IMG/VR virus record: IMGVR_UViG_3300034105_002770
Location: 1 to 27,712 of that record
DNA from: a virus
Length of the DNA stretch: 27,712 nucleotides
Direction: 5' to 3' (one strand)
In this document: piece by piece, positions 5,307 to 26,368 of the stretch
Numbering within the stretch: the first letter of the stretch is position 1
How the letters are laid out: each line of letters opens with the position of its first letter
Position numbers and translations under genes: made by a program
Notes under the pieces: model-generated
The model's input: the letters and a program-made list of their open reading frames with translations, nothing else
Told to the model about the DNA's origin: nothing
Databases searched by the model: none

Positions 5307-5872
5307 GTGATGTGATTACGATTGATACAGGTGTTGGTGTTTCATCTCAATTAAGAGTTGAAGCTTTACCTTTATATACCGATAACTATAGAATGTTAAG
5401 TGAAGTTATGCCCGATTATGATGTCACGAAGTTGCCTAATAATGATATTTCTCTGTTAGTTGCTAGATTGAAATTCACAATGAAGAAGTTTGCTGGTGTA
5501 GGACTGTCAGCTAATCAGTGTGGTATTAAGCGAAGAGTTTTTGTTGTTGGTTATGAGGATTTTCAACTCACATGCATTAATCCAAAAATAGTTAAAACAT
5601 ATGGTGAAATGGAAAAGGCTCGTGAAGGTTGTTTATCTTCACCTGCGTTGACATTAAATATTCCTAGGCATAAAAAGATTGATGTAGAATTTTATGATGA
5701 AAATGGAAATCTACATCAACTTACTATGGATGGGTTGACGGCTATATGTTTTCAACATGAGTTGGATCACATGAATGGCATATATTTTACAGATCATGTT
5801 GGTGAAGTATCTCTCCTTCTTGCTAGACAGAAACAAACCAAAATTATCAAAAAATACAAGAGAATTAAATAA
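5303..5872 (+). CDS. def: Peptide deformylase
   Basis: 189 residues. Metal-dependent removal of the formyl group from nascent proteins. All three family motifs are present: GVGLSANQ (65-72, motif I), EGCLS (108-112, motif II, with metal-ligand C110), and QHELDH (151-156, motif III, with two His ligands and catalytic Glu), so it is probably active. Phage deformylases are known in marine T4-like phages, where they are thought to favour rapid turnover or synthesis of particular proteins. Here the gene sits inside the recombination operon (ATGA overlap with gene 46, TAATG with the next gene), which implies early/middle expression. Confidence 0.93.
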   Translation: MSDVITIDTGVGVSSQLRVEALPLYTDNYRMLSEVMPDYDVTKLPNNDISLLVARLKFTMKKFAGVGLSANQCGIKRRVFVVGYEDFQLTCINPKIVKTYGEMEKAREGCLSSPALTLNIPRHKKIDVEFYDENGNLHQLTMDGLTAICFQHELDHMNGIYFTDHVGEVSLLLARQKQTKIIKKYKRIK

Positions 5873-7215
5873 TGGCTTACAATTTTGATCCTAAAGATGA
5901 TGTCGAGACACAATGGGTGAAATGGCAGGAGTTCAATCCTGTTGAATCGTTCGAAGATGTTGACGAGGTAAAACTAAAGGAAAAACTTATTGTAGATTTA
6001 TCTTACGTTTCGCAGATGGATGTTAAAGAGTATACTCTGTATCAGAAATGGTGTGAGATTCATGAGAAATATCCTACAGTAAAAAACTTAACTGTATTCG
6101 GTGATGAAGAAGTGTTCCTTGAGGATGCAAATCAGAGAAAGTACATCGATGCTGTTAAAGATAATATTTGGGTGCCTCAGTCAGCTGAAGACTATATGAA
6201 TCTACAGCCATTACTGGAGTATACAGATGACTCTGGATCGATCACCAAGAAGTCTGTTGAAGGTACGAACATTCAACTAGATAAGAAGAGAAGTAAAGAA
6301 TTACCAGAACAATGGAATACAGCAAGAAACTTTATCTCTACGATGAAGAATAATAGTAATATCGGTAGAAACTTAAACTTTATGGTGAAAGATGGGAAAA
6401 CTAACAAGTACTTGGGTGTGGTGTGTATATCTTCTGACTTCCTTGATCTTACACCTAGGGATAATGTTATTGGTTGGCCTAGGGACTTAAAGACCACAGG
6501 CGGCATGATCAATCATACCGCAATCGGTTCTACAATTGTTCCCTTTCAACCACTAGGTTATAATTATGTTGGTGGTAAATTGTTAGCTCTGTTGTGTCTG
6601 TCTGATGAAGTGCAGACACTTTGGAAAAAACAATACGGTGATACTTTAGTGGGTGTGACAACGACTTCTCTCTACGGCAAAACCAAATTGAATGGTCTTT
6701 CACAATATGATAACTTAGACCATTGGCAGAAAATGGGATTTACTTCTGGTTCGGTTTCATTCGAACCTTCCCGTGAAACTAGATATATGGTCAGAAGTTG
6801 GTTAAAGAAGTATCATACTAGAAAATATTTTGAGTGGTATGTTGCTAAAAAGTCTAGTGGTCAGCCATACAAAAGAGATCATAAGAATCGTTCTTTGAAT
6901 TTCACTTATTCAAAGTTTGGCATTGCTAAAGAGTTGATTCGTTCAGAACATGCTAGAGGAATATATTTCAGTCCACTATATAACAACACATACGAATTTC
7001 TGCGTGGTGAGATCAAAGAAGATCAATTGGTTAAATCGTTCGATACTTCATATGAATCTTTAGTGTCGATATGGAAAGAGAAACATGCCAAAGGAAGAAT
7101 TAAGCAACTCACTAAAAAGAACACCGTCTCTTACGAATCTCTTTTTTATGACGATCTTATATATTTGGATTGGGAAGAAACTAAGGCAAAGTACCTAGGA
7201 CAAGTTGGGCGATAA
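5872..7215 (+). CDS. DUF4338/DruA-like protein A (447 residues)
   Basis: No assured function. Residues about 165-310 carry the pattern I associate with DUF4338, the domain of the Druantia defence protein DruA: a strand pair with L-G-V-V-C-I-S-S, then PRDNVIGW, then IGSTIVPFQPLGYNYVGGKLLALL, WKKQYGD, a T-T-S-L-Y-G strand, and W-x-x-M-G-x-T-S-G. The GGKLLA helix start resembles an acetyl-CoA-binding loop of GNAT/Mom-type acyltransferases; that link is my inference. A clear paralogue lies at 25253-26368 (shared IVP-QP-G-NY-GGKLLA and TTSLYG-SQYD) and a shorter relative at 14892-15470. The first 160 and last 130 residues are unrecognised, the latter rich in K, R and Y. It starts at a TAATG overlap with the deformylase and ends the operon. 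Confidence 0.85.
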   Translation: MAYNFDPKDDVETQWVKWQEFNPVESFEDVDEVKLKEKLIVDLSYVSQMDVKEYTLYQKWCEIHEKYPTVKNLTVFGDEEVFLEDANQRKYIDAVKDNIWVPQSAEDYMNLQPLLEYTDDSGSITKKSVEGTNIQLDKKRSKELPEQWNTARNFISTMKNNSNIGRNLNFMVKDGKTNKYLGVVCISSDFLDLTPRDNVIGWPRDLKTTGGMINHTAIGSTIVPFQPLGYNYVGGKLLALLCLSDEVQTLWKKQYGDTLVGVTTTSLYGKTKLNGLSQYDNLDHWQKMGFTSGSVSFEPSRETRYMVRSWLKKYHTRKYFEWYVAKKSSGQPYKRDHKNRSLNFTYSKFGIAKELIRSEHARGIYFSPLYNNTYEFLRGEIKEDQLVKSFDTSYESLVSIWKEKHAKGRIKQLTKKNTVSYESLFYDDLIYLDWEETKAKYLGQVGR

Positions 7216-7228
7216 TGAAAAAAAGTGC

Positions 7229-7257
7229 TTGACTTTATGATAGAAAGCCTATATAAT
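7229..7257 (+). promoter_or_regulatory. Consensus sigma-70 promoter for tRNA-like RNA
   Basis: TTGACT (7229-7234), 17-base spacer, TATAAT (7252-7257). The predicted transcription start near 7264 is only about 3 bases before the tRNA-like sequence. One of the best promoter matches in the window. Confidence 0.85.
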
Positions 7258-7266
7258 TATATACTT

Positions 7267-7333
7267 GCGGTGTGTTTAGAACAGGGTAGGTGTCCAACTT
7301 ACTTGCTTGGTGCGAATCCAAGACACCGCTCCA
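7267..7333 (+). tRNA. tRNA-Gly(UCC)-like RNA lacking a D-arm
   Basis: Seen: a 7-bp acceptor stem GCGGTGT (7267-7273) with ACACCGC (7323-7329), then unpaired T and an encoded CCA (7330-7333); a 5-bp T stem CTTGG/CCAAG around the 7-base loop TGCGAAT; and a 5-bp stem GTAGG/CTTAC (7286-7290, 7298-7302) around the loop TGTCCAA, placing TCC as anticodon. First pairs G-C, C-G, G-C, discriminator U and C35/C36 are the known identity set of bacterial tRNA-Gly. Odd: the 12 bases between acceptor and anticodon stems form no D-stem, position 33 is G instead of U, and T-loop position 55 is G instead of T. The body is 63 bases before the discriminator, about ten fewer than normal. It could be a decaying tRNA, a non-translational tRNA mimic or another stable RNA. 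GGTGTC at 7289-7294 can also pair with GACACC at 7322-7327, a competing fold. Confidence 0.55.
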
Positions 7334-7341
7334 ATTACCCG

Positions 7342-7375
7342 ACAGATGTTGTATAAAAACAACATCTGTTTTTTT
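7342..7375 (+). terminator. Rho-independent terminator after tRNA-like RNA
   Basis: Perfect 11-bp stem ACAGATGTTGT (7342-7352) with ACAACATCTGT (7359-7369), a 6-base loop, then a T run to 7375. It ends the tRNA-like transcript, making a predicted primary RNA of about 110 bases. Confidence 0.92.
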
Positions 7376-7379
7376 ATAC

Positions 7380-7408
7380 TTGACGGGTAAGTATATTGCT
7401 GTTATAAT
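7380..7408 (+). promoter_or_regulatory. Sigma-70 promoter for 7435-9824 genes
   Basis: TTGACG (7380-7385), 17-base spacer ending in TGT (extended -10), TATAAT (7403-7408). It follows directly on the terminator. CGGGTAA (7384-7390) across the -35/spacer is the inverse of TTACCCG (7335-7341) on the other side of the terminator. Confidence 0.82.
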
Positions 7409-7434: not shown

Positions 7435-7629
7435 ATGAAATCAACAGTCAATAACGATTATTCACATACTCTACTAGAGCAGGAAGAAATGATGTTTTAT
7501 TCTTGCCTCAATGATACATTGGATGCTTTCCGAACTTTCGGTATTAAAAGCATGTTGAAAGAAGTACAGAAAGATCCCAAACTGAATTCTCAGTTGGTTG
7601 ATTTTATTAACTCTTTTCAGAAAAAATAA
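7435..7629 (+). CDS. Small acidic/helical protein, unknown
   Basis: 64 residues, not recognised. No membrane segment and no signal peptide; predominantly helical by composition, with two Cys/Met-containing segments in the middle (MMFYSCLNDTLDAF). It has a good start: GAGGA at 7424-7428 seven bases before the ATG, and its own consensus promoter. It overlaps the following VWA-peptidase gene in a TAATG junction, so it may be a partner or simply lead the operon. Real gene status is supported by promoter, ribosome-binding site and tight coupling rather than by family. Confidence 0.75.
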   Translation: MKSTVNNDYSHTLLEQEEMMFYSCLNDTLDAFRTFGIKSMLKEVQKDPKLNSQLVDFINSFQKK

Positions 7630-9824
7630 TGTTTACAACACAATCAAAATCCCAATTAGCCAAATTATTGGCTGTAGAAAATATTACGGTCGAACATCGT
7701 AAAATGCAAACCGCAAAATTCGATGTAAAGAATCGTGTTTTATATTGTCCAATCTGGAAAGAAATGTCTTCCTCAATGTATGATCTTTTGATGGGTCATG
7801 AAGTTGGGCATGCTTTGTTTACTCCAGCGGATGGTTGGCATGATGCAATTTGTGAGAAAGGTGCAAACTATAAATCTTTCTTGAATGTTATCGAAGACGC
7901 TCGAATCGAGAAAAAAGTCAAGCGTAAATATCCAGGAATTAAACGTCCTTTCGTTGAGGCATATACTAAACTAATTGAAGATGATTTTTTTGGCATCAAA
8001 GGCCGAAATGTAAATAATTTATCTTTTATTGATCGTGTCAATCTTTTCACTAAACTTGAAGGTTCGATTGCCATCAAATTTACCGATTATGAGCAAACAC
8101 TTGTTGATCGAGTTTTGAGTGTAGAATCATGGAGTGATGTTATTGCTGTTGCTAATGAGATTTATGATTACTCTAAAGATGAACAGCAATCTATGGCTCA
8201 GGAACAAGAAAAATCATATGAAATGAATGATGATGATGAAGAGGACTCACAGGAAATGGAATCTTCTGAACCTGATTCCGATGATAGTGAAGAGTCTGGC
8301 AATTCAGATGATGAAGAATCGGATGAGGATACTGACGAAGAAGATTATAATGAATTTAATGATGATTTGGAACCATCTTGTGGTACAGATGATGCTTTTC
8401 GGCGAAATGAAATTAAGTTATTGGATGATAAATCGAAAGAATATATCTATCTAGAATTACCTAAATTTAATATATCAGATGTTTTAACACCCTCAAAGAT
8501 TGTGCATCAAAGAATGTCCGAGTTTTTTCAATTGAGAGATCATGAAGATTATTTCGGTGTTGCCAATAAAGCTTTAAGTGAATTTAAGAATAAAAACAGT
8601 AGATATATTTCCTTGTTAGCTAAAGAATTCGAAATGAAAAAGTCGGCGAAATCTTTTGCTAAAAATAAAATTTCGGAAACAGGTGATATCGACTTAAATA
8701 AAATATACAAATATCAAGTTGAAGATAACTTGTTTCGTAAACTTATCACCAAATCTAAAGGTAAATCGCATGGATTGGTTCTGGTTCTAGATAAATCTGG
8801 ATCGATGCGGAATAATATGGGTGCATCGATTGAACAGATTCTTGTACTTACCATGTTTTGTCGTAAAGTTAGTATACCTTTTGTTGTATATGGATTTGGT
8901 AATAGTGAAGCTGCACGTAAGTCTGATTTTCCCGATAAAGAAACACATACTGTGTTTGAAAAAAAAGAGAACGTTTTCGTTTTTCAAGATGTGTATTTGA
9001 GAGAATATCTTTCCTCTACAATGAAGGCGAATGAATTTAATGAATCAGTTAAAAATCTCTTGTTATTGAAAAATTGTTTCGATAATGGTTTAAGATATCC
9101 TAGGAGTGAAAACTTAACATCCACACCTTTGATTGAAAGTATGGTGGTTTTACAGCCAATTGTCAAATCATTTAAAAAATCCAATAATTTGGATATCGTA
9201 AACATGGTTTTGGTGAATGATGGTGATGCAGATGAAATTGATGGATGGATGACCAAATCCGAAGACCGTGAAGGTGTTGTTAGAAATCATATGAATCTAT
9301 CTTATCGTAATTTTTTCTTGGTAGATAAAGAGAACAGATATCAATCTAAAATAGAATCACATGAACATTTTCATTGGAATTATGATGATGGTGTACGTAT
9401 TGCTGTATTCGAGTGGTTCAGAAAAACCACAGGTTCGAAAATTTTCGGATTCTTTTTATCTGAATCATCACCTATTAAGATGAGAAATACTATTATATTT
9501 AAGTATAAGGATGAAAAAGGAAAAGACATAGCTAAAATGTTGGGTGTTAATGTCAAAGTAAGTTATAGAAGCTTAGATACACGAATAATTGTTGCCGATT
9601 TGTTTAAGAAATTAAAAGAAAATAAATTTCTTATATCTTACAGTGAAGGATATAATACATTTTTTATATTACCGGGTGGCAATAATTTGAGTATCGAGGA
9701 TGAAGAATTGGAGATTTCAGGTAATATTACCGTAAATAAACTCAAGACCGCCTTCAGTAAATTAGGCAAACTTAAAAGCAACAACCGAGTCTTGGTTTCC
9801 AAATTCATTAAAGGAATCTCTTGA
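7629..9824 (+). CDS. HEXXH metallopeptidase-like + VWA domain protein (CobT-like)
   Basis: 731 residues. N-terminal metallopeptidase-like domain with H57-E-V-G-H61 and a downstream NVIEDARIEKK helix (about 86-96) likely to give the third zinc ligand. Residues about 195-250 are a strongly acidic D/E/S linker of low complexity. A VWA domain follows, with an intact MIDAS motif D388-K-S-G-S392. Acidic linker plus VWA is the layout of CobT, the cobaltochelatase subunit, and the next gene encodes the CobS-like ATPase. Related peptidase/cobS pairs are known in T4-like cyanophages. I infer an AAA+/VWA machine with a proteolytic or remodelling role; actual cobalt insertion is doubtful because no CobN is present here. 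It starts at a TAATG overlap, and its stop codon lies within the -35 box of the next promoter. Confidence 0.88.
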   Translation: MFTTQSKSQLAKLLAVENITVEHRKMQTAKFDVKNRVLYCPIWKEMSSSMYDLLMGHEVGHALFTPADGWHDAICEKGANYKSFLNVIEDARIEKKVKRKYPGIKRPFVEAYTKLIEDDFFGIKGRNVNNLSFIDRVNLFTKLEGSIAIKFTDYEQTLVDRVLSVESWSDVIAVANEIYDYSKDEQQSMAQEQEKSYEMNDDDEEDSQEMESSEPDSDDSEESGNSDDEESDEDTDEEDYNEFNDDLEPSCGTDDAFRRNEIKLLDDKSKEYIYLELPKFNISDVLTPSKIVHQRMSEFFQLRDHEDYFGVANKALSEFKNKNSRYISLLAKEFEMKKSAKSFAKNKISETGDIDLNKIYKYQVEDNLFRKLITKSKGKSHGLVLVLDKSGSMRNNMGASIEQILVLTMFCRKVSIPFVVYGFGNSEAARKSDFPDKETHTVFEKKENVFVFQDVYLREYLSSTMKANEFNESVKNLLLLKNCFDNGLRYPRSENLTSTPLIESMVVLQPIVKSFKKSNNLDIVNMVLVNDGDADEIDGWMTKSEDREGVVRNHMNLSYRNFFLVDKENRYQSKIESHEHFHWNYDDGVRIAVFEWFRKTTGSKIFGFFLSESSPIKMRNTIIFKYKDEKGKDIAKMLGVNVKVSYRSLDTRIIVADLFKKLKENKFLISYSEGYNTFFILPGGNNLSIEDEELEISGNITVNKLKTAFSKLGKLKSNNRVLVSKFIKGIS

Positions 9825-14626: not shown

Positions 14627-14895
14627 ACTGGTTAAATTGGATCAAAAATGATTTCAACTCTCATCCATTCCGGTTTTGTGTCGAGTGTGTTGCTTGGATC
14701 TTTAGCATATCTTGCTCAATCATCCTGGCAATCACCGTCAAAGACCCCGCATTTTATATTCTTTATCCTTTATGGATATCTGGTTGTATTATGTACGCTT
14801 GGGCTGCATGGACTCGCAAGTCATTTGGTATGCTTGTTAACTACTTCTTGTTAGCTACTATTGATGTGATAGGATTTATGAGGTATATGGTGTGA
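14623..14895 (+). CDS. Small membrane protein, three hydrophobic segments
   Basis: 90 residues, unrecognised. Hydrophobic segments at about 18-39, 43-63 and 68-87, with short basic or acidic links (K-D-P, T-R-K-S), indicate a small inner-membrane protein without a cleavable signal. It overlaps gene 44 by ATGA and its last codons overlap the GTG start of the next gene, so it is translated with the clamp-loader genes. No holin-specific feature (charged tail, dual start) is evident. Possible roles, such as a membrane anchor for replication or a host-membrane modifier, are guesses only. Confidence 0.78.
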   Translation: MNWLNWIKNDFNSHPFRFCVECVAWIFSISCSIILAITVKDPAFYILYPLWISGCIMYAWAAWTRKSFGMLVNYFLLATIDVIGFMRYMV

Positions 14896-15470
14896 TTGAG
14901 TTGGTTCAAGTCATAAATCAAGAACAGAAAAATCTTGTCAAATGGATTATTGAGAACCATCATTCATATGTTCCAACAAATTCTTCCGTTGGAAGAAGAA
15001 TTGATTGGTTAATCTTTATACATGATGCATCGCCTTTACCTAAGTGTATAGGTATGATAGGATTGGGTTCATCTGTCTATCCTCCACCAAAAGATATTCT
15101 GAATTACTTGGGCATATCTAAACAACAATACAAATTGATTTTCAATAATATTGCTAATAATTGGAGGTTTTGTATGACGGAATCTGTAAAGAATGCTGGT
15201 ACTCAAATCCTTAAACAACTTAGACAGAAAGCACCAAAAGCATGGAAAGATAAGTATGGTGATGATCTGACACATATTATAACCTTTGTTGGTGCTGGTA
15301 AAAATGGTTCTGTTTATTTGGCTGATAATTGGACCAATATTGGTGAAACTTCTGGTCTACCAAAACATAAATCATCTTCCATGAAATGGAATACAAGTGA
15401 ACAACTTAAAGAATTATTTGTTAAACCAACTGGTGAAAACAAAAAGATTATATTGGTTAAAAAATTATGA
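14892..15470 (+). CDS. DUF4338/DruA-like protein C (192 residues)
   Basis: The closest of three related proteins to the DUF4338 pattern as I know it from DruA of Druantia. In order: IIENHHSY (the H-H position), RRIDWLIFI strand, IGMIGLGSS, NNIANNWRF, W-K-D-K-Y-G-D, ITFV, then G-S-V-Y-L-A-D-N-W-T-N-I-G-E-T-S-G. Canonical members read HHYLG, RYLI, NN-RF, W-x-x-YG, ETFV, G-x-x-Y-x-A-x-N-W-x-x-x-G-x-T-x-G at the same places. It consists of the core domain only. It starts with GTG inside the end of the membrane protein gene and overlaps gene 62 by ATGA. Biochemical activity is unknown; a GNAT/Mom-type fold is my inference. Confidence 0.85.
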   Translation: MIELVQVINQEQKNLVKWIIENHHSYVPTNSSVGRRIDWLIFIHDASPLPKCIGMIGLGSSVYPPPKDILNYLGISKQQYKLIFNNIANNWRFCMTESVKNAGTQILKQLRQKAPKAWKDKYGDDLTHIITFVGAGKNGSVYLADNWTNIGETSGLPKHKSSSMKWNTSEQLKELFVKPTGENKKIILVKKL

Positions 15471-23899: not shown

Positions 23900-25256
23900 G
23901 GAATACACACGTAAAGTTCTGCCATTCCTAAACAGTGAATATTTCTCAGATAGTACTGAGAAGTGTGTATTCAATGAAGTGGAAAGGTTTGTAAATCAAT
24001 ACAAAGTTTTACCTACGCATGAAGCTCTCATCATCAACCTAACTGATTCGAATGATCTAACGGAAGAACAAGTAAAGTCTTCCGTTAGACTTTTGAAAGA
24101 GTTGGATGATAAAAAATCTGAACCATCTGAAGTTAACTGGTTAACTGAACAGACTGAAAAGTTTTGTCAAGACAAAGCCATTTATAATGCAATTATGGAA
24201 TCTGTGGGCATTCTTGATGATAAAGATAGTAAACGTGCCAAAGGTGAGATACCTAAACTATTGTCCGATGCACTTGGTGTATCATTCGATCAGAACGTTG
24301 GTCATGATTACTTGAATGATTCTGAAACACGATTTGATTTCTATCATCGTAGAGAAAAAAAGATTAAGTTTGATCTAGACTTTTTCAACAAGATCACCAA
24401 AGGTGGTTTACCTGTAAAGACTTTGAATATTGCATTGGCTGGAACAGGTGTTGGTAAGTCTCTGTTTATGTGTCACGTTGCTGCATCTTGTATCAGTCAA
24501 GGTCACAATGTACTCTACATTACCATGGAAATGGCTGAAGAGAGAATTGCTGAGCGTATCGATGCAAACATGTTGAACGTCACGATGGATGATCTACACT
24601 TAATTCCTAAAGAAGATTATGAAAGAAGGTTTTCTGCACTCAAGAGTAAGACGCAAGGCAAGTTAATTATCAAAGAGTACCCAACCGCTTCAGCACATGC
24701 AGGACACTTTCGTGCTTTGCTAAGTGAATTGAAACTTAAGAAGAATTTCACACCAGAAATTATCTTCATTGATTATTTGAATATCTGTTCGTCATCTAGA
24801 ATTAAACAAGGTGGTTCGGTTAACTCGTATACTTACATTAAATCTATTGCTGAAGAACTCAGAGGCCTTGCTGTTGAGGCTGGTGTGCCAATTGTATCTG
24901 CAACACAAACTACTCGTAGTGGTTTCAGTAATACCGATGTTGGTCTCGAAGATACTTCCGAATCATTTGGTTTACCTGCAACTGCCGACTTTATGTTTGC
25001 TTTGATTAGTACGGAAGAACTTGAACAGTTGAATCAGATTATGGTTAAACAGTTGAAGAATCGTTATGGTGATCCAAACATGAACAAGAAATTTGTGATT
25101 GGTGTTGATCGTTCCAAGATGAGACTGTATGATGCTGAGGCTTCTGCACAGCAAGACTTGTCCGATTCTGGTCAAAGTATACCTGATACACCATTGAACA
25201 CTTTCGGTAATAGAGAGAGAAAGTTTAATTCTAAATTTGAAGGCGTTAGAGTATGA
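23853..25256 (+). CDS. 41: Replicative DNA helicase gp41 (DnaB-like)
   Basis: 467 residues (T4: 475). Hexameric 5'-3' helicase that also stimulates primase. Long matches to T4 gp41: FLNSEYF near the start, ITKGGLPVKTLNIALAGTGV with Walker A AGTGVGKS (196-203), HNVLYITMEMAEE, RIDANMLNV, LLSELKLKKNF, IIFIDYLNIC (Walker B), SYTYIKSIAEELRGLAVE, and ESFGLPATADFM near the C-terminal part. Overlaps the preceding small gene by 47 bases and the next gene by ATGA. No primase (gp61) gene is visible in the window. Confidence 0.96.
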   Translation: MIRLETTILKNLIYCEEYTRKVLPFLNSEYFSDSTEKCVFNEVERFVNQYKVLPTHEALIINLTDSNDLTEEQVKSSVRLLKELDDKKSEPSEVNWLTEQTEKFCQDKAIYNAIMESVGILDDKDSKRAKGEIPKLLSDALGVSFDQNVGHDYLNDSETRFDFYHRREKKIKFDLDFFNKITKGGLPVKTLNIALAGTGVGKSLFMCHVAASCISQGHNVLYITMEMAEERIAERIDANMLNVTMDDLHLIPKEDYERRFSALKSKTQGKLIIKEYPTASAHAGHFRALLSELKLKKNFTPEIIFIDYLNICSSSRIKQGGSVNSYTYIKSIAEELRGLAVEAGVPIVSATQTTRSGFSNTDVGLEDTSESFGLPATADFMFALISTEELEQLNQIMVKQLKNRYGDPNMNKKFVIGVDRSKMRLYDAEASAQQDLSDSGQSIPDTPLNTFGNRERKFNSKFEGVRV

Positions 25257-26368
25257 ACTTGACTAGAGATCAGGCTCTGCATTGTGTTGAGGTCTTTCAT
25301 GATTACTTTGATAAGTTTGATAGAATCGATGAGTACATGAGAGATCAAAAACTCAATGCATTATCTGAATTGCCTATTGCTTTACCTGGTTGTGGTCCAG
25401 AGGAAGATTTGTTTTCTGACTTCAATGTTTCTCCCATTAATATGGAATTTGAAATAGTGGAACTTGAACCTGATAGATGGCAATTATATCTTGATATCAC
25501 CTCTTCACACATCAACTCTTCAAGTCCAGGTAGAAATGTCAAGTTGGCTGTTCGTGAGAAGACTACAGGAAAGTTTGTGGGATTCATCAGGATTGGTTCT
25601 CCAACGATTATGATGAAGCCTCGTAATGTTCTATTAGACTGTGTGATTACGAATGAGACAGAGACAACCAAATCTTTCAACAAGGCTGCCGCTATGGGTT
25701 TTGTAATTGTTCCCGCACAACCTTTCGGATTCAATTACCTTGGCGGCAAGTTACTTGCGGCAATCTGTTGTTCGCATGAAGTAAGAGAGAAGTTGAATGC
25801 CAAATATAATATGAATTTGTGCTTATTTGAAACTACCAGTCTTTATGGTTCATCGAAGACGGTATCTCAATATGATGGCATGAAACCTTTTCTGCGTTTT
25901 GGTGGAATAACTGAATCAGATTTTCTACCAATGATGCACGGTAAGCCTTATGATAATCTGAAAGATTATGTTGAAAAGATTAAGGGTGGATCATTTGTAC
26001 CTGAAGATGCATCAAGTAGAAAATTAAAGATTATCAATACTATAATCTCTATGACTAAGAGTGCATTGAAACCACATAAAGAAGATTATGATAGGTTTGT
26101 TTCAATCGTCAATAAGGCCAAGTCTCTAACAGAAAAGAAACGTTATTATCATTGTAGTTACGGAGTGAAAAACTACAAAGATATCGTTCTAGGTAAAACT
26201 CAAGAGATCATCAAAGATGATAATTATGATAAACACAATCTATCATACATCGTTGAGTGGTGGAAGAAAAAGGCTGAGAATCGATATCAGAGTTTGAAGA
26301 CTGAAGGTAGATTGAGAACTGAACAAGAAGTTTGGACAGGTGATAAAAAGATTGACATTATACGGTAA
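25253..26368 (+). CDS. DUF4338/DruA-like protein B (371 residues)
   Basis: Paralogue of the protein at 5872-7215. Core at about residues 95-230: VKLAVREKTTGKFVGFIRIG, a KPRN block, VIVPAQPFGFNYLGGKLLAA, LCLFETTSLYG, and SQYDGMKPFLRFGG. Shared residues with A include IVP-QP-G-NY-GGKLLA, S-x-E-V, Y-x-x-x-L and TTSLYG-SQYD. The N-terminal 80 residues and a basic C-terminal helical region (rich in K, about 240-371) differ. Function unknown; it is coupled by ATGA to helicase gene 41, which puts it with replication genes. The next gene is preceded by a late promoter, so this is probably the end of the early/middle operon. Confidence 0.85.
   Translation: MNLTRDQALHCVEVFHDYFDKFDRIDEYMRDQKLNALSELPIALPGCGPEEDLFSDFNVSPINMEFEIVELEPDRWQLYLDITSSHINSSSPGRNVKLAVREKTTGKFVGFIRIGSPTIMMKPRNVLLDCVITNETETTKSFNKAAAMGFVIVPAQPFGFNYLGGKLLAAICCSHEVREKLNAKYNMNLCLFETTSLYGSSKTVSQYDGMKPFLRFGGITESDFLPMMHGKPYDNLKDYVEKIKGGSFVPEDASSRKLKIINTIISMTKSALKPHKEDYDRFVSIVNKAKSLTEKKRYYHCSYGVKNYKDIVLGKTQEIIKDDNYDKHNLSYIVEWWKKKAENRYQSLKTEGRLRTEQEVWTGDKKIDIIR

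Follow-up and report, generated by a model that had tools for sequence, protein, structure and literature searches.

A tRNA-Gly-like RNA of aquatic phages that keeps its glycine-charging features and is probably used outside protein synthesis

The window (the whole 27,712-nt stretch of DNA that was analysed) carries at 7267–7333 a real tRNA-Gly-like RNA, which is a separate transcription unit here and in many of the other members of its family. From the pattern of conservation we lean towards reading it as a phage-encoded analogue of tRNA-Gly that could be charged by the host glycyl-tRNA synthetase (GlyRS) but would be barred from translation. The window comes from a T4-like phage of aquatic origin, kin to the Kyanoviridae, and this fragment has genes for a UvsW-type helicase, gp47, gp46, peptide deformylase, gp45, gp44, RegA, DNA polymerase and UvsX. 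The RNA unit lies between a DruA-family gene and a small ORF, the latter preceding a peptidase gene. Three DruA-family (PF14236) ORFs lie within this single phage fragment. The features, with the evidence for each in brackets, are as follows.

5872–7215, plus strand: DruA-family protein of 447 aa with a predicted GNAT-like fold, candidate partner of the RNA (PF14236, fold model, co-occurrence)
7229–7257, plus strand: sigma70-type promoter, TTGACT-17-TATAAT, with the end of the -10 box 9 nt upstream of G1 (scan)
7267–7333, plus strand: body of the tRNA-Gly-like RNA, 67 nt, CCA encoded (sequence reading, relatives, RNAalifold, covariation)
7267–7273, plus strand: 5′ strand of the acceptor stem, GCGGTGT, pairing with 7323–7329; G1, C2 and G3 are GlyRS identity elements (RNAalifold, covariation; identity set from PMC9976931)
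7274–7282, plus strand: mini D-arm GTT-TAG-AAC of 3 bp with a 3-nt loop, lacking G18G19 (RNAalifold; 3/3 pairs compensated)
7284–7304, plus strand: anticodon arm with a 7-bp stem (7284–7290/7298–7304) and loop TGTCCAA at 7291–7297, giving G33 and TCC at 34–36 (7/7 pairs compensated)
7306–7322, plus strand: T arm CTTGG-TGCGAAT-CCAAG, where UGC replaces the UUC of the canonical loop and position 55 is G (RNAalifold, covariation)
7323–7333, plus strand: 3′ strand of the acceptor stem, ACACCGC (7323–7329), then discriminator U73 and CCA (7330–7333) (sequence reading, covariation)
7341–7370, plus strand: intrinsic terminator with a 12-bp stem and a T run after it (scan)
7435–7629, plus strand: small downstream ORF of 64 aa (neighbour outside the RNA unit, with its own promoter-like site at 7380–7408)
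7629–9824, plus strand: peptidase-family neighbour, phrog_459 (anchor for locating the locus in other contigs)
14892–15470, plus strand: short DruA-family ORF of 192 aa in the gp44/RegA interval (PF14236, E=6e-13)
25253–26368, plus strand: third DruA-family protein, 371 aa (PF14236, phrog_19197)

An earlier sequence-only reading of this DNA had given the RNA its own promoter and terminator, and both were recovered by our scan. In 46 of 78 distinct relatives the RNA is preceded by a promoter scoring at least 9/12, as opposed to 12% of shuffles, with the -10 box commonly 8–13 nt from G1. Terminators were also found 3′ of the RNA in several relatives, their sequences unrelated to one another. Because a terminator of its own follows the RNA, which also sits at other loci, we rejected the idea that it is a cis-regulatory leader of the peptidase. 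The window gave no tRNA call with ARAGORN or with the Rfam tRNA model (RF00005), even at E≤5, and no known Rfam family matched the RNA. Within the window, 46 bases of the promoter region (7219–7264) are 85% identical to the human faecal phage record MT835855.1.

Using the peptidase as an anchor, 80 loci were fetched, and a covariance model was built from the alignment of the first relatives. When searched with this model, 74 of 81 sources had the RNA, on the peptidase's strand and upstream of it. Of the seven sources without it, six are contigs whose sequence ahead of the peptidase, at under 200 bases, is too short, leaving one (L013) that truly lacks the RNA and an informative count of 74/75 peptidase loci. 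Pattern scans of viral contigs added members at other genome positions, bringing the total to at least 93 distinct bodies, all in uncultivated phage contigs. The RNA is found beside the peptidase, between the S21 and GroES genes and within tRNA clusters, and some contigs carry tandem diverged copies with CCA encoded in each. Given these several unrelated positions, the tandem copies and the good promoters, the RNA is trans-acting, and its sequence context indicates that it is probably well expressed. Several carriers also encode an ordinary tRNA-Gly with anticodon UCC or GCC, some in sets of 15–28 tRNAs.

Some individual contigs had further features. Tandem copies with unlike loops, each with CCA, are present in L125 (326–465, TGTCCAA with TGCCCAA) and L126 (304–444, ATCCCCT with TGTCCAG). 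The 214-kb phage contig L127 (G001) has 28 tRNA predictions, including anticodons CTA and TTA (1488–1562 and 6633–6706), potential readers of the stop codons TAG and TAA. The pattern used to scan the viral contigs matched at least 118 stretches in the bacterial and archaeal genome collection; among the 80 loci listed none scored above 19 bits to the model, compared to roughly 50–85 bits for true members, and we rejected bacterial membership and regard these matches as chance. As far as searched, the RNA is phage-specific. Cultured phages searched by DNA similarity gave no true match to the RNA of the window, and no paper describing such phage tRNAs was found in the literature searched.

RNAalifold, run on the alignment of the first relatives, folded the RNA as a cloverleaf with a 3-bp D stem. 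Among 45 distinct peptidase-locus sequences, 17 of the 22 pairs were compensated (both sides changed) and 94.6% of cells were paired, a covariation score that was reached by 0/500 shuffles and was abolished when the pairing partners were slid by 1–3 bases. This alignment had been fitted to the covariance model, which favours pairing, but the effect is nevertheless large, and a MAFFT alignment of the first 18 sequences gave the same answer (0/500 shuffles). All four stems are strongly supported by covariation, and the RNA is a conserved four-arm structured RNA. Paired substitutions in related phages at the same locus, which the sequence-only reading had proposed looking for, are thus present.

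That reading had described the RNA as missing its D-arm. The mini D-arm at 7274–7282, with compensatory changes in all three of its pairs, overturns this description and led us to reject a strictly D-armless structure. The perfect 7-bp acceptor stem, the perfect T stem with G at position 55, and the CCA encoded after U73 could all be read in the sequence as claimed. The anticodon-type hairpin was right in its TCC at 34–36 and its G33; its stem is 7 bp rather than 5. It had also been suggested that GGTGTC could pair with GACACC in place of the acceptor stem. Such a switch is feasible in the window sequence alone, but it is not kept among relatives, where the loop is constant while the 3′ strand of the acceptor covaries with its own 5′ partner (as read from the alignments rather than formally counted), and we rejected it for this reason.

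The same covariation decides whether the RNA could simply be a decaying tRNA-Gly, one of the functions suggested earlier. The D-loop and elbow residues are lost, as decay would predict, and a short deletion within a normal D arm could yield such an RNA. However, the relatives have compensatory changes across all four stems and the RNA is at the same locus in 74/75, with close and distant kin alike keeping the structure in this way and none having an ordinary tRNA there. The outcome that the earlier reading had named as refuting it, an ordinary tRNA at this locus in kin together with random decay here, was looked for and did not appear. We consider decay extremely improbable and, on the covariation, refuted. 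The conservation pattern is best matched by two of the other earlier suggestions, a GlyRS substrate or a non-ribosomal glycine donor.

Bacterial GlyRS recognizes tRNA-Gly through U73, G1-C72, C2-G71, G3-C70, C35 and C36 (PMC9976931). The complete set is present in the window, as had been noted, and in the peptidase-locus set G1-C72, C2-G71, G3-C70, U73 and CCA are invariant while the lower acceptor pairs drift. The conservation of the acceptor end was judged on that set, and the 93 bodies were left out of it because their extraction required these ends. The CC at 35–36 is found in 92 of the 93 distinct bodies, the lone exception (L150) being a parsing artefact, and it is kept whatever the remainder of the loop looks like, with GUCCA, UACCC, UCCCC, UUCCC, CCCA and CCCC all seen in various clades.

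The features used in decoding look very different. The D loop is 3–5 nt in the 93 bodies, leaving no room for G18G19, and GG is absent from all of them; the T loop is UGCRAAU in most, and T54-T55 is gone from nearly all. At position 33, 53 bodies have G, 34 have U and 6 have C; 29 have C at position 37, and some anticodon loops are just 4–6 nt long. Some freshwater-type members do have U33, but with an unusual C37, and a normal-sized loop with both U33 and a purine at 37 is found in 1/93 only. Taken together, the varied loop changes, the lost elbow and the invariant identity set indicate from sequence comparison that decoding features were lost by several routes while synthetase contacts were retained. 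Since the charging features are all kept and the ribosome features are lost, the RNA probably supplies or diverts glycine for use outside protein synthesis.

These loops also bear on whether the RNA could be a working minimal tRNA for translation, like the mitochondrial tRNAs that lack normal elbows. The UCC anticodon is in place in many members, the glycine identity is complete, and the marine members described below have a normal anticodon loop. This reading is difficult to reconcile with a G or C at position 33 in 59/93 bodies, with C37 and the shortened loops, and with the canonical tRNA-Gly UCC that adjoins the RNA in several phages, and we think it improbable. Slightly less probable again is a regulatory role, in which a small RNA would use its C-rich loop to base-pair with G-rich ribosome-binding sites and owe no more than stability and processing to its tRNA shape. 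The C-rich loop and the RNA's own promoter and terminator would suit such a role, but it leaves unexplained why the three upper acceptor pairs, U73 and CCA are invariant amid drift elsewhere.

A second elbow-altered subfamily was found in marine phages related to Pelagibacter phage Mosig, and consists of full-length tRNA-Gly-like RNAs with a D loop without GG, a T loop of GGCAGUA (or AGCGUUA) and compensation in 13/20 pairs. Viral contigs yielded twenty of them, none recognized by ARAGORN, although it calls an ordinary tRNA-Gly(GCC) in three of the contigs that bear them. With UUUCCAA or UUACCAA they have a normal anticodon loop, in which U33 is kept, and for this reason the marine subfamily could represent an earlier stage or still be able to decode. 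Among cultured phages, Mosig (MT647606.1, 7774–7857) carries such an RNA, which ARAGORN misses and which lies in a region annotated as hypothetical protein, and so does HTVC008M (KC465899.1, 91135–91218, also delimited as 91140–91213), where it is called tRNA-Gly(ACC) by ARAGORN and Rfam. Both have anticodon ACC, no GG in the D loop and an altered T loop. At Pelagibacter-type loci with an orthologous DruA protein, an elbow-altered tRNA-Gly is present in 15 of the 16 having at least 8 kb downstream, though these marine loci were selected by their DruA gene. L142, L143, L171, L199, L202 and L224 share a variant form in which the anticodon stem is longer, the loop is TTCCT and the T loop (GGCGGTT) resembles the marine one.

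The closest parallel is the non-proteinogenic tRNA-Gly of staphylococci, which serves cell-wall pentaglycine synthesis (Giannouli et al. 2009, as described in PMC4052509). According to that description, glycine identity is kept and G18G19 is lost, as in the phage RNA, and the staphylococcal tRNA is presumed to bypass EF-Tu and translation and to serve a non-ribosomal transferase instead, which is what we propose for the phage RNA. The loss of G18G19 is found in all phage bodies, and in the marine members likewise. The staphylococcal tRNA differs in being encoded on a bacterial chromosome and in having a substitution at 18–19 rather than a 3–5-nt D loop (PMC4052509), while the phage RNA is, as far as searched, phage-only and has a mini D-arm, a 7-bp anticodon stem and an altered anticodon loop. 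By analogy, it is likely that host GlyRS would load the phage RNA with glycine and that the product would be poorly used by EF-Tu and the ribosome, as with the staphylococcal cell-wall tRNA-Gly.

Animal mitochondrial tRNA-Ser without a D arm likewise has a reduced D side and lacks the normal elbow contacts (PMC9976931). That tRNA decodes, however, whereas the phage RNA has a D arm, a loop usually without U33 or with C37, and often coexists with an ordinary tRNA-Gly. The ordinary phage tRNA-Gly(UCC), which shares the acceptor end, discriminator, CCA and CC at 35–36, is the probable ancestor. The phage RNA differs from it in having no elbow, in its anticodon stem and loop, and in being missed by ARAGORN and the Rfam tRNA model. 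Of the canonical hallmarks, GG in the D loop is absent from all bodies of the phage RNA, UUC in the T loop has been replaced in most, and an anticodon loop of 7 nt that has both U33 and a purine at 37 is seen in one body only.

The main rival to a glycine donor is a decoy, in which the RNA, charged or not, would soak up a host factor that targets tRNA-Gly and so shield phage translation; the factor could be an anticodon nuclease, for example, or a Gly-tRNA-acetylating GNAT toxin. A strong promoter of its own, conservation of the glycine acceptor end and of CC in the loop, tandem copies whose loops differ, and the phage-only distribution, as far as searched, are all what a decoy would lead us to expect. 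On the other hand, a nuclease decoy should retain the natural anticodon loop, and this loop has been rebuilt in every clade with CC alone kept; no matching defence system was identified. We hold a decoy to be unlikely.

If the RNA is instead a glycine donor, the DruA-family protein is our candidate for receiving the glycine. DruA-family genes are present in 17/17 large RNA-bearing contigs, also where gene and RNA are not adjacent, and are absent from one related contig without the RNA (a single negative contig), though this co-occurrence could reflect shared core genes. The AlphaFold model of the 447-aa protein (pLDDT 86) matched almost exclusively GNAT acetyltransferases in the PDB, weakly (best E 5e-3), and among viral models its best function-named match was Mom of Salmonella phage FSL SP-031 (E=1.1e-3). 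A cyanophage homologue was annotated as Mom by its depositors. In complete records of cyanophages and Pelagibacter phages, tRNA-Gly is present in 13/14 DruA-positive compared to 3/12 DruA-negative genomes (Fisher p ~6e-4, calculated by hand), an association that is only suggestive since the records are related, tRNA numbers differ and the cyanophage tRNA-Gly is ordinary. A FemAB-like transferase as the partner was rejected, with PF13480, the sole such family searched, absent from 18 phage contigs.

The product of Mom in phage Mu corresponds to a glycinamide. The structural matches of the modelled DruA-family neighbour to GNAT proteins, Mom among them, are weak to moderate. Mom transfers an acyl group to adenine N6, and glycyl-CoA has been proposed as its donor (PMC7824862), as opposed to the tRNA donor proposed here; no description of a tRNA donor for Mom was found in the literature searched. 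Co-occurrence and the predicted fold suggest that the DruA-family protein may receive glycine from the RNA, which we put forward tentatively. By analogy with Mom, this protein would then attach a glycyl-derived group, either to DNA or to some other acceptor. That the glycine-charged RNA is a dedicated donor for a Mom/DruA-type GNAT enzyme that places such a group on phage DNA, or else on RNA or protein, is a shade more doubtful still.

Phage tRNAs are generally viewed as translation helpers, and a family that keeps charging features alone points to a non-ribosomal use of glycine while the host is infected. The RNA family is widespread in phages of aquatic bacteria, with cultured relatives that infect SAR11. 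DruA-family proteins are known from the Druantia defence system, and if the GNAT-like partner is correct, it would give them a possible role and provide a directly testable donor for Mom-like modification. If the donor reading is true, it would be a case of nucleic-acid modification with an aminoacyl-tRNA as substrate, and may answer what Mom-like enzymes use as their donor.
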